A stretch of DNA of 64,000 nucleotides from Nocardiopsis mwathae (GTDB lineage: Bacteria; Actinomycetota; Actinomycetes; Streptosporangiales; Streptosporangiaceae). Each line of letters starts with the position of its first letter. Position 1 is the first letter of the stretch. Under the pieces are notes generated by a model, which was given only the letters and a program-made list of their open reading frames with translations, made no database searches and was not told the DNA's origin. The stretch covers positions 1,364,001-1,428,000 of the forward strand of contig NZ_JACHDS010000001.1 of NCBI RefSeq assembly GCF_014201195.1, written 5' to 3'. A program made the position numbers and the translations under genes. This document shows positions 2,889-58,144 of the stretch, piece after piece.

Positions 2889-3443
2889 ATGAGCGGTACG
2901 GAGCGGGCAGAGTCCGCGGGGAACGCCAAGGACCCCGATGGCTTCGAGCGCCTGTGGACACCGCACCGCATGGCCTACATCAAGGGTGAGAACAAGCCCA
3001 AGGGGCCGGCCGCCGGCGACGGCTGCCCGTTCTGCCGCGCCCCGGGCCTGCCCGATGAGGAAGGACTCGTCGTCGCCCGCGGCAAGACCACCTTCGCGGT
3101 GCTCAACCTCTACCCGTACAACAGCGGGCACCTGCTGGTCTGCCCCTACCGCCACGTCGCCGACTACACCGAGCTGGACGAGGCCGAGACCGCCGAGCTG
3201 GCCGCGATGACCCAGGACGGCATCGCCGCGCTGCGCCGGTCGGCCGGACCGCAGGGGTTCAACGTCGGCATGAACCTCGGCACGCCCGCGGGCGCCGGCA
3301 TCGCCGCCCACCTGCACCAGCACATCGTGCCCCGCTGGGGCGGCGACACCAACTTCATGCCGGTGATCGGCCAGACCAAGGTGCTCCCGGAGATGCTCCG
3401 GGAAACCCGCGCGATCCTCGCCGAGAACTGGCCGGAACGCTAG
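2889..3443 (+). CDS. HIT domain protein, diadenosine polyphosphate phosphorylase/hydrolase type
   Basis: 184 residues. The catalytic HIT triad HLHQHIV is at residues 141-147 and CPFC at 46-49 is a likely zinc or structural pair. In mycobacteria the homologue next to pgsA (Rv2613c) is an Ap4A phosphorylase, so a nucleotide-phosphate role is likely. The ATG is preceded by GAGGTG at 7 nt and overlaps the stop of a 10-codon mini-ORF (2860-2892) as ATGA. The TAG stop is remarkable: its G is the first base of the repeat element at 3443. The neighbouring PIM genes follow the mycobacterial order. Confidence 0.88.
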   Translation: MSGTERAESAGNAKDPDGFERLWTPHRMAYIKGENKPKGPAAGDGCPFCRAPGLPDEEGLVVARGKTTFAVLNLYPYNSGHLLVCPYRHVADYTELDEAETAELAAMTQDGIAALRRSAGPQGFNVGMNLGTPAGAGIAAHLHQHIVPRWGGDTNFMPVIGQTKVLPEMLRETRAILAENWPER

Positions 3444-3504
3444 GACGTGTTCGACGGATCATTCCCGGCTCGCGGCCACCGGAAAGCATCCGCCGAACAC
3501 GCCC
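3443..3504. repeat. 62-bp MITE-like inverted-repeat element, short form (copy A)
   Basis: Ends are GGACGTGTTCGACGGAT (3443-3459) and ATCCGCCGAACACGCCC (3488-3504), inverted repeats matching at 15 of 17 positions. It is flanked by TA on both sides (3441-3442 and 3505-3506). Bases 3444-3493 match the ends of the 160-bp copy at 56082-56241 closely, with the 98-bp interior missing at the CACCGGAA repeat. The first G completes the TAG stop of the HIT gene. Confidence 0.85.
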
Positions 3505-3506
3505 TA

Positions 3507-3530
3507 GGGCGTGATCCACAGAACACGGTC
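3507..3530. repeat. 24-nt solo hairpin related to the MITE ends
   Basis: GGGCGTGATCCACAGAAC followed by ACGGTC, abutting the TA that ends copy A. Relatives lie at 20447, 36223 and 58121. The reverse complement starts like the MITE terminus (GGGCGTGTTC in intact copies). The right arm is degraded here. Confidence 0.7.
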
Positions 3531-9415: not shown

Positions 9416-10161
9416 GCGGCCACTCCAAGTGGGCCACCACGAAGCACAAGAAAGCCGTCATCGACGCCAAGCGAGGCAAGCTCTTCGCCAAGCTGATCAA
9501 GAACGTCGAGGTGGCCGCGCGTACTGGTGGTGGCGACCCGGATGGCAACCCGACGCTGTTCGACGCCATCCAGAAGGCGAAGAAGAACTCGGTCCCGCTG
9601 GACAACATCGAGCGCGCCCGCAAGCGCGGGTCCGGTGAGGAGGCCGGCGGGTCCAACTGGGAGACCATCATGTACGAGGGCTACGCCCCTGGCGGCGTGG
9701 CCCTGCTCGTCGAGTGCCTCACGGACAACCGCAACCGCGCGGCGTCGGAGGTGCGCGTGGCGGTCACCCGCAACGGCGGCTCCATGGCCGACGCCGGATC
9801 GGTGTCCTACCTGTTCACCCGCAAGGGCGTGGTGATCGTACCGAAGGAGGGCACCTCCGAGGACGACGTCACGCTCGCGGTCCTGGACGCCGGCGCCGAG
9901 GACGTCAACGACCTCGGCGCGGCCTTCGAGGTCGTCTGCGAGGCCACCGACCTGGTACCCGTCCGCACGGCGCTGCAGGGGGCCGGCATCGACTACGAGT
10001 CGGCCGAGACCTCCTTCCTGCCCAGCATGGAGGTGCCCCTCGGTGAGGAGGACGCCAAGAAGGTGATGCGCGTCGTCGACGCCCTGGAGGACTCCGACGA
10101 CGTCCAGAACGTGTTCACCAACGCCGACATCCCCGACGAGGTCATGGAGAAGATCGGCTGA
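9412..10161 (+). CDS. yebC: YebC/PmpR family DNA-binding regulatory / translation factor
   Basis: 249 residues, full length. N-terminus [20 protein letters not shown] and [16 protein letters not shown] are family signatures. Members are described as transcription regulators and, for some, as factors relieving ribosome stalling. Overlap with pdxT (ATGA) and the usual placement just before ruvC fit the conserved actinobacterial order. Confidence 0.93.
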
Positions 10162-19164: not shown

Positions 19165-19763
19165 CGTGTCCTCCAGCTGTGATGTGCCTGACGCCGCGGC
19201 GTCGGGTCGTGTGTGTCGCGGCAGCCTACAACCTGATGTGCCGGGTCCGGTTGCGCACTCCGGCAGGCAGGGACTGACACGACGATGCATATGCACAATA
19301 TCCGTACACAATGTCGGATATCGAGCTTGTCCGACTACTGTTATCGCATCTCAGCGGGGTGGACCAGCGGGTGTCGAACGCGTTGGCCGCAGCGCCGGGA
19401 TGTCGGCCCGCCCCGGACTCCGGGTCCCGGAAGACCGGCCGAGATATGACGACGACCAATATGGCATCGACGGGCCGTCTGGCAAAGGGCCAAGTGGCGC
19501 GCGGTGATCGAATGGTGATGAAGCGGTACCGCCGCGACCCGCCGCGGAGGCCCCCGCAGGCCCGGGGGAACCACGAGGGTCACCGTCCCCGCCCACCGGA
19601 GGCCCGGACGGTGCGCGAATACCCGGTCGCCCCCCACCCCCTGTCCTCGGTACCCTCGGGGATAGGGACAGGGCCGCCCGCGCGGACGCCGCCGGACCGT
19701 CTCCACGCCCGGCCCCGCGAACACCCCGTGATCCACCGACAACGAATCGAGGACGACCCCGCC
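19165..19763. promoter_or_regulatory. 600-bp divergent intergenic region with palindromes
   Basis: No convincing gene. It contains a TGCATATGCA palindrome (19286-19295) and the inverted repeat ATATCCG-N10-CGGATAT (19298-19321), close to the start of the divergent DUF349 gene. The sequence is locally AT-richer than its surroundings, consistent with promoters and an operator. The right part up to 19763 is the leader of the MBL hydrolase. Confidence 0.5.
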
Positions 19764-20447
19764 GTGCTCATCGCCGCCTTTCCCGCCGGTCCGCTCGCCG
19801 CGAACTGCTACGTGGCCGCACCGGCCAAGGGCGCGGGGTGCGTCGTCATCGATCCCGGCCAGGACGCCTCCGCCGGACTGCGCAAGCTGCTGGACGAACA
19901 CGACCTCCGCCCCGAGGCGGTCCTGCTCACCCACGGCCACTTCGACCACGTCTGGTCGGCCGCCCAGGTGGGCGCGGCCCACGGTGTCCCCGTCCACATC
20001 CACTCCGCCGACCGCGCGCTGCTCACCGACCCGGCCAAGGGCCTCGACCCCGGCCTGGCCGCGCAACTGTCCGGCCTGCTGGGCGACGCCACCCCGGGAG
20101 AACCCGACGACCTGGTGGAACTGTCCGGCGGCGAGGAGCTGGACCACGCCGGACTGCGCATCACCGTCGAGCACGTCCCCGGCCACACCCCCGGCTCGGT
20201 CACCTTCGCCCTGCCGGGCGGCGACGAGCACCCCGGCATCCTGTTCACCGGCGACCTGCTGTTCGCGGGCTCCATCGGCCGCACCGACTTCCCCGGCGGC
20301 GACCACGCCGAGATCCTGCGCAGCCTGGACCGCGTCTGCCGCGATCACCCCGACGACACCGCGGTGCTCCCCGGTCACGGCCCCCAGACCACCATCGGCC
20401 GCGAGCGCGCCACCAACCCGTTCCTGCGAGATATCGCCGGCCGCTAG
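19764..20447 (+). CDS. Metallo-beta-lactamase fold hydrolase (glyoxalase II-like)
   Basis: 227 residues. The dinuclear zinc motif THGHFDHV, then HVPGHTPGSV, FTGDLLFAGSIGRTD and the final LPGHGPQT are complete, so the enzyme should be active. The family hydrolyses thioesters such as S-lactoyl conjugates; substrate here unknown. GTG at 19764 with GAGGA upstream is preferred; GTG at 19728 would add 12 residues. In relatives hisS follows; here aspS does. Its TAG stop uses the first G of a repeat element. Confidence 0.85.
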   Translation: MLIAAFPAGPLAANCYVAAPAKGAGCVVIDPGQDASAGLRKLLDEHDLRPEAVLLTHGHFDHVWSAAQVGAAHGVPVHIHSADRALLTDPAKGLDPGLAAQLSGLLGDATPGEPDDLVELSGGEELDHAGLRITVEHVPGHTPGSVTFALPGGDEHPGILFTGDLLFAGSIGRTDFPGGDHAEILRSLDRVCRDHPDDTAVLPGHGPQTTIGRERATNPFLRDIAGR

Positions 20448-20470
20448 GGCATGATCCACAGAACTCGCCC
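20447..20470. repeat. 24-nt solo hairpin repeat at a stop codon
   Basis: GGGCATGATCCACAGAAC then TCGCCC, preceded by TA. The first G is the third base of the MBL hydrolase stop TAG (20445-20447). Same family as 3507, 36223 and 58121. Confidence 0.75.
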
Positions 20471-22549: not shown

Positions 22550-22568
22550 AGATGTCGTACCCCCGCCT

Positions 22569-22634
22569 CCGTGGATCTCGGGAGAACGGTTCGAATTCTC
22601 GCCGGAATTCGAACCGTTCTCCCGAGATCCACGG
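22569..22634. repeat. Long perfect hairpin, 30-bp arms with 6-nt loop
   Basis: Left arm 22569-22598 starts CCGTGGATCTCGGG; right arm 22605-22634 is its exact reverse complement; the loop is TCGCCG. It is the second of three hairpins between convergent aspS and the zinc-finger gene. Much longer than an ordinary terminator here. It could be a bidirectional terminator or the remnant of an inverted-repeat mobile element. Confidence 0.85.
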
Positions 22635-22707
22635 GCGAGGGCCCGGCGGGGGTTTCCGGTGAGATCTGGACGATGCCCTGTGAGCCGCGCGGGTGGACGC
22701 GTACTGT

Positions 22708-33151: not shown

Positions 33152-35379
33152 GCGACAACGACACCTACGGTGATCCGCGGCGGCAGGGGCACGGGCCGGT
33201 CGATCCGGCCTACGGCGATCCCCGCCCCTACCGGGCCCGCCGCGCCCGGCTCGACCGGGAGTTCCCCGAGGATCCGCTGAGCGGCCCTCGCCCGGACACC
33301 ACCGGGGCGTACCGCCCCGCTTCCGACCCCCTCACCGACCCCTGGCGCCGCGAGCCGCCCCGCCGCCCCGCGCCCGGCGGCTACGACACCTCCGGCCACC
33401 GGTTCCCCGCGTCCGGCCCCGCCGGATGGGACGAGACCGCGCCTCCCCCCGACCCCGACCTGGACCGGCCCCGCGGACGCCGCCACCGCCCCACCCCCGA
33501 CACCGGGTACGCGCCCCCCGACGCCGACCCGCTGAGCGCACCGCGCCGCGCGTCGGACCCCGGCGAACCGCCGGCCCCGGGTGGCCGCCGCCGTGTCGCC
33601 GGACCGCCCGCGGAGACCGGCGATCGGGCCGAGGCGTGGGCGCAGCGCGCCCCCCGCGGCGACGACACACGCGGTGGCGACCCTCTCGGCGACGACCGGC
33701 CCCGCGGACGCCGCAGGCGCCCCGCCGCCGACTCCGGTGCGGAGCACACCGGTGCGCAGCGGGCCCTGCGCGACGCCGCCGGTCCCCGTGACGACCGCGA
33801 AGCAGCCGCGGATGCCGGTGCCCCCGGGCCGCGGCGCCGACGCGCCCGCGGCGACGATCCCGGGCGACCGGGCGGCCACGCCGCCGTCCCCAGCGACGAG
33901 AGCTGGCTGGACCAGGTGCGGTCCGACGCGGGAGACGACGACCTCGAACCGGTCGCACCGCGCGTCCTCGATTTCGACTCCGTCCCCGTCCGACGCAAGG
34001 GCGGGCGCGGCCGGAAGGCGGACGGCGCCCCCGCGCGGGAGCGCCGCGGGCGTCCCCGGAGCCGCGGACGCGACGCGGAGGAACCGGCCGGCGCACCCGA
34101 CCCTGACGAGCAGGAGCGCCCGCGGCGCGCACGGCGTGCCGCCTCCGGTGCCGCGGACGCCGCCGAGAGCCCCGACCTCTACGACGAGGCCGACGCGGAG
34201 GACCGCGACGGGGACCGGGCCGAGGCGACGGACGGTGACGAGGGCCGCGGACACCGGCGGGGGCGGCGCGGCCGGGCCGGCCGCGACCGCCGCGGCACGG
34301 GCGGCGACGACGGCTCCGGTGGGCGGCGCGGCGGTGGGAAGAAGAAGATCGCGCTGATGGCCGCCGCGTCCGTGTTCGTCGTGCTCGCGGCCGGTGGCGC
34401 CTGGGGCGCCCGCACCTACGTGTTCCCCCCCGACTACAACGGCGAGGGTGGCGGCGAGGTCGAGATCGTCATCGCCCAGGGCGAGCACGGCGGGCAGGTC
34501 GCGCAGTCCCTGGCGGACGCCGGTGTCGTGGCCAGCCCACGGGCGTTCCTCAACGCGCTCACCGACGACCAGGCCAACCGGCTGTCGCCGGGCACCTACC
34601 GGCTCCGCTCCGAGATGAGCGCGCAGTCCGCGGTGGCCCTCCTGCTGGACCCCTCGGCGCGTGTCGGTGAGCGGATCACGTTCAAGGAGGGGCTGCGGGG
34701 CCAGGAGATCCTGGGTCTGCTGGCGGACAAGACCGATCTGTCCAGGGAGGACCTGGACGCCGCCTTCGCCGACACCGCGGCGCTGGGCCTGCCCTCCTAC
34801 GCCGAGGAGGGAACGGAGGGCTACCTCTTCCCGGACACCTACACCGTCTCGCCGGGGGACACCGCCTCGGAGGTCCTCAAGCGCATGGTCGACCGGTTCA
34901 AGACCGTCTCGGAGTCCCCCGAGGTCGACCTGGAGGAGAGGGCGCGGGAGGTCGGCCACACGCCGAACGAGATCATGGCGATCGCCTCGATCATCCAGGC
35001 CGAGACGGGGACCATCGAGGACATGCCGAAGATCTCGCGGGTCGTCTACAACCGGCTCGACGAGGACATGGAGCTCGGCATGGACAGCACCTGCTTCTAT
35101 GTGATCGGCCAGCACGGCATCGCGCTGACCAACAAGCAGCTCGCCGAGTGCAAGGACGAGGACAGCGACTACGCCACCTACGGGCGCAAGGGGCTGCCGG
35201 CCGGGCCGTTCGTCGCCCCCGGCGAGGACGCCATCCAGGCGGCCCTGAACCCGGCCGACGGCGACTGGCTGTTCTTCGTCGCCACCGACCCGGAGAACGG
35301 GGTCACCGAGTTCGCCGACACCTACGCGGAGTTCGAGCGGCTCAAGCAGAAGTTCAACGAGAGCCAGAGGAACGACTGA
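33148..35379 (+). CDS. mltG: Endolytic murein transglycosylase MltG with long disordered cytoplasmic arm
   Basis: 743 residues, far longer than the ~340 of E. coli MltG. Residues 1-395 are Arg/Pro/Asp/Gly-rich with recurring DPLS, DPLT and DPLG and PRGRR units. A membrane helix at about 400-420 (IALMAAASVFVVLAAGGAWG) is followed by the YceG domain. The catalytic Glu is E619 in IASIIQAETG. It cuts nascent glycan strands to set their length. The low-complexity cytoplasmic arm is a common actinobacterial trait and may bind divisome partners. It overlaps aroE by one base. Confidence 0.9.
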   Translation: MSDNDTYGDPRRQGHGPVDPAYGDPRPYRARRARLDREFPEDPLSGPRPDTTGAYRPASDPLTDPWRREPPRRPAPGGYDTSGHRFPASGPAGWDETAPPPDPDLDRPRGRRHRPTPDTGYAPPDADPLSAPRRASDPGEPPAPGGRRRVAGPPAETGDRAEAWAQRAPRGDDTRGGDPLGDDRPRGRRRRPAADSGAEHTGAQRALRDAAGPRDDREAAADAGAPGPRRRRARGDDPGRPGGHAAVPSDESWLDQVRSDAGDDDLEPVAPRVLDFDSVPVRRKGGRGRKADGAPARERRGRPRSRGRDAEEPAGAPDPDEQERPRRARRAASGAADAAESPDLYDEADAEDRDGDRAEATDGDEGRGHRRGRRGRAGRDRRGTGGDDGSGGRRGGGKKKIALMAAASVFVVLAAGGAWGARTYVFPPDYNGEGGGEVEIVIAQGEHGGQVAQSLADAGVVASPRAFLNALTDDQANRLSPGTYRLRSEMSAQSAVALLLDPSARVGERITFKEGLRGQEILGLLADKTDLSREDLDAAFADTAALGLPSYAEEGTEGYLFPDTYTVSPGDTASEVLKRMVDRFKTVSESPEVDLEERAREVGHTPNEIMAIASIIQAETGTIEDMPKISRVVYNRLDEDMELGMDSTCFYVIGQHGIALTNKQLAECKDEDSDYATYGRKGLPAGPFVAPGEDAIQAALNPADGDWLFFVATDPENGVTEFADTYAEFERLKQKFNESQRND

Positions 35380-36230
35380 TGCGCGCGGCGGTCCTGGGAT
35401 CCCCCATCGAGCACTCGCTCTCGCCGGTCCTGCACACCGCGGCCTACGCGGAGCTGGGCCTGGCGGGGGAGTGGAGCTACGAGCGCTTCGAGTGCGACGA
35501 GGCGGGACTGCCGGCCTTCCTCGCCCGGTGCGACCGCACCTGGGCGGGGCTCTCGCTGACCATGCCGCTGAAGAGGGTGGCGCTGGAGCTCGCCGACGAG
35601 GTCGACGAGCTGGCCGTCCAGGTCGGCGGCGCCAACACGCTGGTGTTCACCGCAGGGCGCGTGCACGCCTGGAACACCGACGTCGCCGGAATCATGGCGG
35701 CGCTGCGTGAGGCGGGCATCGACCGTGTGCGGTCGGCCGCGGTCCTCGGCGGCGGTGCCACCGCGGCCTCCGCCGTTGCCGCGCTGCGCGGACTCGGTGC
35801 CCTGGATCCGGGCGCCGTGACCGTTCTGGCCCGCGACCCGGCCCGCGCGGCCGGGGTGGAGGCGGCGGCGGGGCGGATGGGGCTGGCGATCGGTGTGCGG
35901 CCGCTGGCCGAGATCGAGCGGCACCTCGATGTCGACCTCGTGGTCTCCACGCTCCCGGCCGGTGCCGCCGACCTTCTGGTGCCGGCCGTCGCGGCGAGCC
36001 GTGCCGCCCTGTTCGACGTGGTCTACAGCCCGTGGCCGACCGAGCTGGCGCGGGCCGTGCACGCGGCCGGGGCCGGTGCGGGGCAGCGGTCCGGGCGGAT
36101 CGCGGTCGGCGGCTTCCCCATGCTCCTGCACCAGGCCGCGGTCCAAGTCGAGCTCATGACGGGGGCCGAGCGCGCCCCGGTCGAGGCCATGCGTGCGGCG
36201 GGTGAGGCGGAGCTGCGCCGCCGGGCATGA
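35379..36230 (+). CDS. aroE: Shikimate dehydrogenase
   Basis: 283 residues. Substrate domain LGSPIEHSLSPVLHTAAY and LTMPLK (catalytic Lys), GGANTLV and NTDVAG (catalytic Asp); NADP domain AVLGGGATAASAVAAL. It reduces 3-dehydroshikimate. ATG at 35379 shares a base with the mltG stop. In many actinobacteria aroC, aroK and aroB follow; here a repeat and the infC leader follow directly. The TGA stop lies inside a repeat element. Confidence 0.9.
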   Translation: MRAAVLGSPIEHSLSPVLHTAAYAELGLAGEWSYERFECDEAGLPAFLARCDRTWAGLSLTMPLKRVALELADEVDELAVQVGGANTLVFTAGRVHAWNTDVAGIMAALREAGIDRVRSAAVLGGGATAASAVAALRGLGALDPGAVTVLARDPARAAGVEAAAGRMGLAIGVRPLAEIERHLDVDLVVSTLPAGAADLLVPAVAASRAALFDVVYSPWPTELARAVHAAGAGAGQRSGRIAVGGFPMLLHQAAVQVELMTGAERAPVEAMRAAGEAELRRRA

Positions 36231-36246
36231 TCCACGGAACTCACCC
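36223..36246. repeat. 24-nt solo hairpin repeat spanning the aroE stop
   Basis: GGGCATGATCCACGGAAC then TCACCC. The element codes the last Ala (GCA) and TGA stop of aroE. Same family as 3507, 20447 and 58121. Confidence 0.7.
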
Positions 36247-54882: not shown

Positions 54883-56081
54883 ATGACCGAGCGGGTCGTA
54901 CTCGCATACTCCGGGGGGCTCGACACCTCCGTCGCCATCGGCTGGATCGCCGAGGAGGCCGGTGCCGAGGTCGTGGCCGTGGCCATCGACTGCGGCCAGG
55001 GCGGTGAGGACCTCGACGTCGTCCGGCAGCGCGCGCTCGACTGCGGCGCCGTCGAAGCCGTCGTCGCCGACGCCAAGGACGAGTTCGCCAACGAATACTG
55101 CCTGCCCGCACTGCAGGCCAACGCCCTCTACATGGACCGCTACCCGCTGGTGTCGGCGCTGTCGCGGCCGCTGATCGTCAAGCACCTCGCCGACGCCGCC
55201 CGGTACCACGGCGCGACCATGGTCGCCCACGGCTGTACCGGCAAAGGCAACGACCAGGTGCGCTTCGAGGCCGGGCTGGCCGCCCTCTTCCCCGAGCTCA
55301 AGGTGCTCGCCCCGGTCCGCGACTCCGGCATGACCCGGGACAAGGCCATCGCCTTCGCCGAGGAGAAGGGCCTGCCCATCGACGTCTCCAAGAAGTCGCC
55401 CTACTCCATCGACCAGAACCTCTTCGGCCGCGCCGTGGAGACCGGGTTCCTGGAGGACATCTGGAACGGCCCCATCGAGGACGTCTACTCCTACACCGCC
55501 GACCCCGCCGAACCGCGCGAGGCCGATGAGGTCGTCATCTCCTTCGAGAACGGCGTGCCCACCGCCGTCGACGGCAAGGAGCTCACCGTCCTGCAGGTCA
55601 TCGAGGAGTTGAACCGGAGGGCCGGAGCCCAGGGCGTGGGCCGGATCGACATGGTCGAGGACCGGCTGGTGGGGATCAAGAGCCGCGAGGTCTACGAGGC
55701 ACCGGGCGCGATCGCGCTGATCGCCGCCCACCAGGAGCTGGAGAACGTCACCGTGGAGCGGGAACTGGCCCGGTTCAAGCGGGGCGTGGACCAGCGCTGG
55801 GGTGAACTCGTCTACGACGGCCTGTGGTTCTCCCCGCTCAAGCACGCCCTCGACGGGTTCATCGCGGAGGCCAACAAGCACGTCACCGGCGACATCCGGA
55901 TGGAGCTGCACGGCGGCCGCGCGGTCGTCACCGGGCGGCGTAGCGAGGCCTCCCTGTACGACTACGAGCTCGCCACCTACGACACCGGCGACACCTACGA
56001 CCAGAGCCTGGCCCGCGGCTTCATCGACATCTGGAGCATGCCGGCCAAGATCGCCAGCCTGCGCGACCGCCGGCAGTCCTA

Positions 56082-56082
<1 letters not shown>
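54883..56082 (+). CDS. argG: Argininosuccinate synthase
   Basis: 399 residues. ATP-binding P-loop [29 protein letters not shown] and [16 protein letters not shown] are diagnostic. AGGAGAG-type site 8 nt before ATG 54883. It joins citrulline and aspartate. Its TAG stop (56080-56082) contains the first G of repeat copy B, and two tandem repeats plus two hairpins separate it from argH. Confidence 0.95.
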
Positions 56083-58067
<1,985 letters not shown>

Positions 58068-58120: not shown

Positions 58121-58144
58121 GGACATGACCCACGGAACACGCCC
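58121..58144. repeat. 24-nt solo hairpin repeat downstream of argH
   Basis: GGACATGACCCACGGAAC followed by ACGCCC, the most symmetric right end of the family. Here it lies 54 nt after the argH stop; 58070-58095 (CGCGTTCGCGGCTCGCGG) resembles a decayed MITE left end. Confidence 0.6.

Follow-up and report, generated by a model that had tools for sequence, protein, structure and literature searches.

In the genome of Nocardiopsis mwathae, most copies of a short repeat designated A occupy host stop codons without altering the encoded proteins. A and a related family, B, are miniature inverted-repeat transposable elements (MITEs). Insertion of MITEs into CTAG, scarcity of CTAG in coding DNA, and selection very probably explain the placement at stop codons, and no host function is needed. 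The window referred to below is the whole 64,000-bp stretch of DNA that was analysed (contig NZ_JACHDS010000001.1, positions 1,364,001 to 1,428,000).

The A family comprises ~45 copies of about 60–170 bp, with a long form of 160–170 bp and a short form of 60–102 bp, and starts with GGGCGTGTTCGRCGGAT at either end. A elements are short and non-coding, carry 17-bp terminal inverted repeats (TIRs), and are flanked by a TA duplication, which is the structure of a MITE. Mobility is indicated by their multiple copies and by empty sites that could be aligned in a same-genus genome, in which the A family was not found. Long intact copies of A are mostly 93–99% identical to the copy at argG. The B family is a 24-bp palindrome, GGGCRTGATCCRYGGAACACGCCC, with ~18 copies. 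Read from the sequences, the first 24 bases of A match the reverse complement of B at ~19 positions. Allowing one mismatch, no match to B was found in 60 genomes of the host's family. A pattern scan for further mini-elements returned 5 places, fewer than the 31 returned by a reversed-pattern control; two of the five are B-like, one of them previously known. Compared with the same-genus genome, the B copies at window positions 20447–20470 and at positions 9883–9906 of locus L025 are clean insertions. B would thus be a mobile unit of exceptionally small size, or a remnant, constant in length, of a larger one. A different repeat family is represented in the window by a near-perfect 80-bp palindrome at 22562–22641, with at least 8 related copies (75–85% identity) in the fetched loci.

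The window contains seven elements, three of A and four of B, the number counted in the original prediction. That prediction also held that the TAG stops of three genes consist of the target TA and the first G of an element, and the sequence bears this out for all three (all features given here are on the forward strand, and gene identities are from Pfam). Specifically, the HIT-domain gene (2889..3443), whose best named relatives include Allosalinactinospora and Nocardiopsis, ends with GAACGC TAG followed by GACGTGTTCGACGGAT. Its stop at 3441–3443 shares its last base with a short A element of 62 bp (3443..3504), which has the TIRs GGACGTGTTCGACGGAT and GGGCGTGTTCGGCGGAT and flanking TAs at 3441–3442 and 3505–3506. 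This A element adjoins a 24-bp B element with an eroded right end (3507..3530), the left TA of which is common to A, and both elements are missing from the same-genus genome. The gene of a metallo-beta-lactamase-fold hydrolase (MBL; 19728..20447, with an uncertain start, the longest ORF beginning at 19311) ends with GGCCGC TAG followed by GGCATGATCC, and its stop at 20445–20447 is shared with a 24-bp B element (20447..20470) inserted in CTAG. The argG gene (argininosuccinate synthase; 54883..56082) ends with CAGTCC TAG followed by GGCGTTTTCG, and its stop at 56080–56082 is shared with the first of two long A elements in tandem. The first copy (56082..56241) has 160 bp between its TAs, the second (56244..56404) has 161 bp, and the CTAG at the end of the first is common to both. 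The remaining B elements lack a flanking TA. One (36223..36246), flanked by CC and TG, contains the TGA stop (36228–36230) of aroE (shikimate dehydrogenase; 35379..36230), as was also predicted. The other (58121..58144) lies ~50 bp past argH, with CA and TG where TA is expected.

The insertion target of A is CTAG. Removal of the element and one TA from the 34 A copies with both ends, a few of which have one TA mutated, restores CTAG in 33 of 34 cases and CTAA in the remaining one. Insertion duplicates the central TA, and the result is C-TA-[element]-TA-G in place of C-TA-G. With a G at the start of the element and CTAG as target, a TAG stop is preserved whichever strand it is on. The original prediction was right that the elements are mobile, that they target TA, that the first G completes or restores TAG, and that such sites are tolerated, but not just any TA serves as target. 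An extended motif was sought around the occupied CTAGs, and none was seen. In five A copies (at 2821712, 3507647, 3611844, 3734043, and 1107562; genome coordinates, contig C1), the stop-distal TA has decayed to TG, GA, or CA and the stop-side TA is intact. This is expected if selection keeps the stop, an argument that is partly circular because an element counts as being at a stop only if that TA is intact.

The same-genus genome, with ~91% identity in the compared coding ends and an inverted collinear chromosome, defines the state of the stops in a relative without A. In this relative, the stop is a TAG at the identical codon in hisF, purU, moeZ (MoeZ-like), ald, gatA, the MBL gene, and a sortase gene, and a TAA at the identical codon in the HIT orthologue. 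The MBL orthologue has CGCTAG at the matching codon, and the relative lacks exactly 26 bp at this site, namely the 24-bp B and 2 bases in the position of the expected second TA. The stop of the argG orthologue has the same position but is TGA, while leuA has a different end, also TGA. Since the relative mostly ends at the same codon and mostly with TAG, the stops pre-existed at most comparable sites, argG and leuA aside. The idea that an insertion supplies part of the host stop needs correction: the G is shared with the element, but most of the stops that could be compared were TAG (or TAA) beforehand. The aroE gene is a different case from those with which it had been grouped. Its stop is indeed inside B, but its orthologue in the relative is ~4 codons longer and ends with TAG; therefore, B changed the C-terminus of aroE.

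Enrichment at stop codons was determined in 60 fetched stretches with the window, which cover 1.26 Mb or ~21% of the 5.94 Mb genome, using gene ends called by a codon-usage script written for this analysis. Once nested copies are excluded, along with those that lie at the end of a resident insertion sequence (IS), 41 independent A insertions remain. The TA of 29 of these 41 lies in a stop codon, compared with 21% of unoccupied CTAG sites (69 of 328; Fisher p = 3e-10); among TA dinucleotides, the stop share is 1.9% (p ~5e-41). The genome-wide enrichment on which the original prediction was to stand or fall is present. Most background CTAG loci had been chosen for holding an element; eight stretches picked irrespective of elements have 10 stops among 73 CTAGs, which gives p = 1e-9 for the enrichment and leaves the conclusion unchanged. 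Counting only genes confirmed by a Pfam match above the cut-off, 25 of 41 insertions are at stops (p = 3e-7), including those of argG, leuA, hisF, gatA, ald, purU, the MoeZ-like gene, and rplS (ribosomal protein L19). As to the stop-occupied calls that lack firm Pfam support, no family matched two of them, a third gave a weak match only, and the call at 517986, which hits the 'NucS shadow ORF' family, is perhaps not a gene.

The near-absence of CTAG from coding DNA explains much of the stop pattern. The 328 unoccupied CTAGs comprise 25 in coding DNA, 69 at stops, 220 in non-coding DNA, and 14 at locus edges; the non-coding sites lie between convergent (26), co-directional (133), and divergent (61) genes. 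Base composition would predict ~2,510 sites in the 1.0 Mb of coding DNA, ~100-fold more than the 25 observed, and because CTAG is nearly absent from genes, stops make up one fifth of all CTAGs. The enrichment beyond CTAG scarcity is a bias to gene 3' ends generally. Specifically, 33 of 41 insertions are 3'-proximal (at a stop or within 60 bp after it), compared with 97 of the 303 free CTAGs left after the coding sites are set aside (odds ratio 8.8, p = 4e-9). Within the 3'-proximal set, the share of stops does not differ significantly between elements (29/33) and free CTAGs (69/97; p = 0.06). The simplest cause of this 3' bias is probably purifying selection against insertions in promoters and genes.

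These features suggest how the pattern would arise. A transposase, probably of the IS427 group of the IS5 family, would insert the elements into CTAG and duplicate the central TA. As a TAG stop following a codon that ends in C makes CTAG, stops form a large class of available targets. Such sites are safe, since the change from C-TA-G to C-TA-[GGGC...GCCC]-TA-G leaves a frame that still ends with TAG and an unchanged protein. Insertions near promoters or in coding DNA would be removed by selection, so that the surviving copies would be concentrated at gene 3' ends.

The A TIR resembles the ends of IS5-family elements that encode DUF4096-type transposases in other actinobacteria and differs from them at ~2 positions, but the similarity is short. 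A CTAG target with TA duplication fits the IS427 group, although IS630 and certain IS481 elements have this target too. The genome yielded no IS427-type transposase (PF13340), and a search for an autonomous partner with matching TIR gave no TIR pair at IS distance among the pattern matches. The autonomous partner may have been lost, and its absence does not exclude MITE status. A resident IS630-type IS was considered as the mobiliser of A and rejected, as the TIRs differ. This IS (PF13358) is present in 8 copies (e.g. L003:8790-9930 and L015:8781-9884). Its transposase frame extends to the final base of the IS and ends in a TAG made of the target TA and the next G, as in IS870, and 7 of its 8 copies adjoin an A element at a common TA. 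One A copy (L027:19622-19785) lies 35 bp past the gene of a 537-aa protein with a DDE_Tnp_1 domain (PF01609). Three loci with TIRs of this class in other genomes (L153, L159, and L162) likewise terminate at a TAG that closes a long reading frame, which suggests that the stop-codon pattern is not confined to this species.

Several other explanations of the pattern were weighed. A few coincidences in one window might have been suspected, as the original view held only seven elements, but chance is refuted by the genome-wide count of 29 of 41, significant against CTAG sites and far more so against TA dinucleotides. Truncation of longer genes, with a new stop made at a TAC or TAT codon, is very unlikely. 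TA followed by G would give TAG from any codon that starts with TA, and aroE is really ~4 codons shorter than in the relative; however, the flanks of A give CTAG empty sites, and the shared end codon of most compared orthologues contradicts truncation for most sites compared. It is unlikely that, in addition to the need for CTAG, transposition is actively directed to the 3' ends of genes, whether by a host factor, by supercoiling, or by transcription. The residual 3' bias, with an odds ratio of about 9, could include active targeting, but the same pattern is expected from purifying selection against insertions in coding DNA and on the promoter side, and the occupied CTAGs have no extended motif. 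The broader notion of transposition directed to the 3' ends of transcribed genes as a built-in safe-harbour strategy, with stop codons as landing pads, is likewise doubtful.

The original prediction also proposed that the elements act as 3' UTR hairpins or terminators. Retention of the elements at stops as transcription terminators or stabilising 3'-UTR hairpins is quite unlikely, although A forms a highly stable hairpin (z -4.7 in one orientation and -10.4 in the other) and lies directly after the stops of core genes, e.g. rplS. The strong folding of A RNA is demanded by its inverted repeats. The two orientations fold differently, but their use at stops is random (13 vs 16). An intrinsic terminator would consist of a GC-rich hairpin and a T-run at a constant position and orientation behind the gene, but no T-run follows the A hairpin in the sequence. 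Folding of the 24-bp B is not better than that of shuffled sequence. In the 110 nt past the element, the strongest hairpin has a median of -24.6, compared with -25.9 behind unoccupied CTAG stops (p = 0.6), and the native hairpins beyond the elements behind leuA, moeZ, and an amino acid permease gene are conserved in the relative. Random orientation and retained native hairpins therefore give no support to a terminator role. Replacement of native terminators by the elements was also considered and rejected, since native hairpins persist past the elements.

This case gives a quantitative picture of how a preference for four target bases and the composition of a genome jointly make a safe harbour. 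Where the genes of a high-GC genome avoid CTAG, stops become the main tolerated landing sites, even those of core genes, e.g. argG, hisF, and rplS. This explains why such repeats resemble part of the gene, and cautions that position alone is no proof of 3'-UTR function. Comparison of a CTAG census with an element map is a simple test applicable to any genome with CTAG-targeting elements.

IS870 belongs to the IS5 family. Like A it requires CTAG, and its transposase family is probably that of the mobiliser of A; the stop concerned is that of the transposase in IS870 and that of a host gene in A, where no transposase is present. As cited in PMC6471742, IS870 needs CTAG and uses it to generate the stop of its transposase (Fournier et al. 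1993). IS630 inserts at the TA within CTAG, according to work cited in PMC2170065 (Tenzen 1990, 1991); it has the same target as A but belongs to another family, and the A TIR is unlike that of the resident IS630-type element. MITEPsy1 of Pseudomonas syringae is a 100-bp MITE, possibly related to IS5, that inserts at CTAG or YTAA. Compared with A, the passages of PMC3189936 on MITEPsy1 describe few copies and a 4-bp duplication and report no stop-codon preference. The literature search, which covered open-licence papers, brought up no MITE family that has most of its copies on host stop codons. TnRErm46 and its IS481-family element ISRe46 of Rhodococcus equi also target CTAG, and the flanking TAG serves as the stop of the transposase and of some host genes, the function of which is uninterrupted (PMC6794481). 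TnRErm46 is 6.9 kb and has a 6-bp NCTAGN repeat, whereas A is non-autonomous and at most ~170 bp, and for A the stop-codon preference has been counted genome-wide. Thus, the principle of CTAG insertion at stops is already known, and the present case is an unusually strong one.
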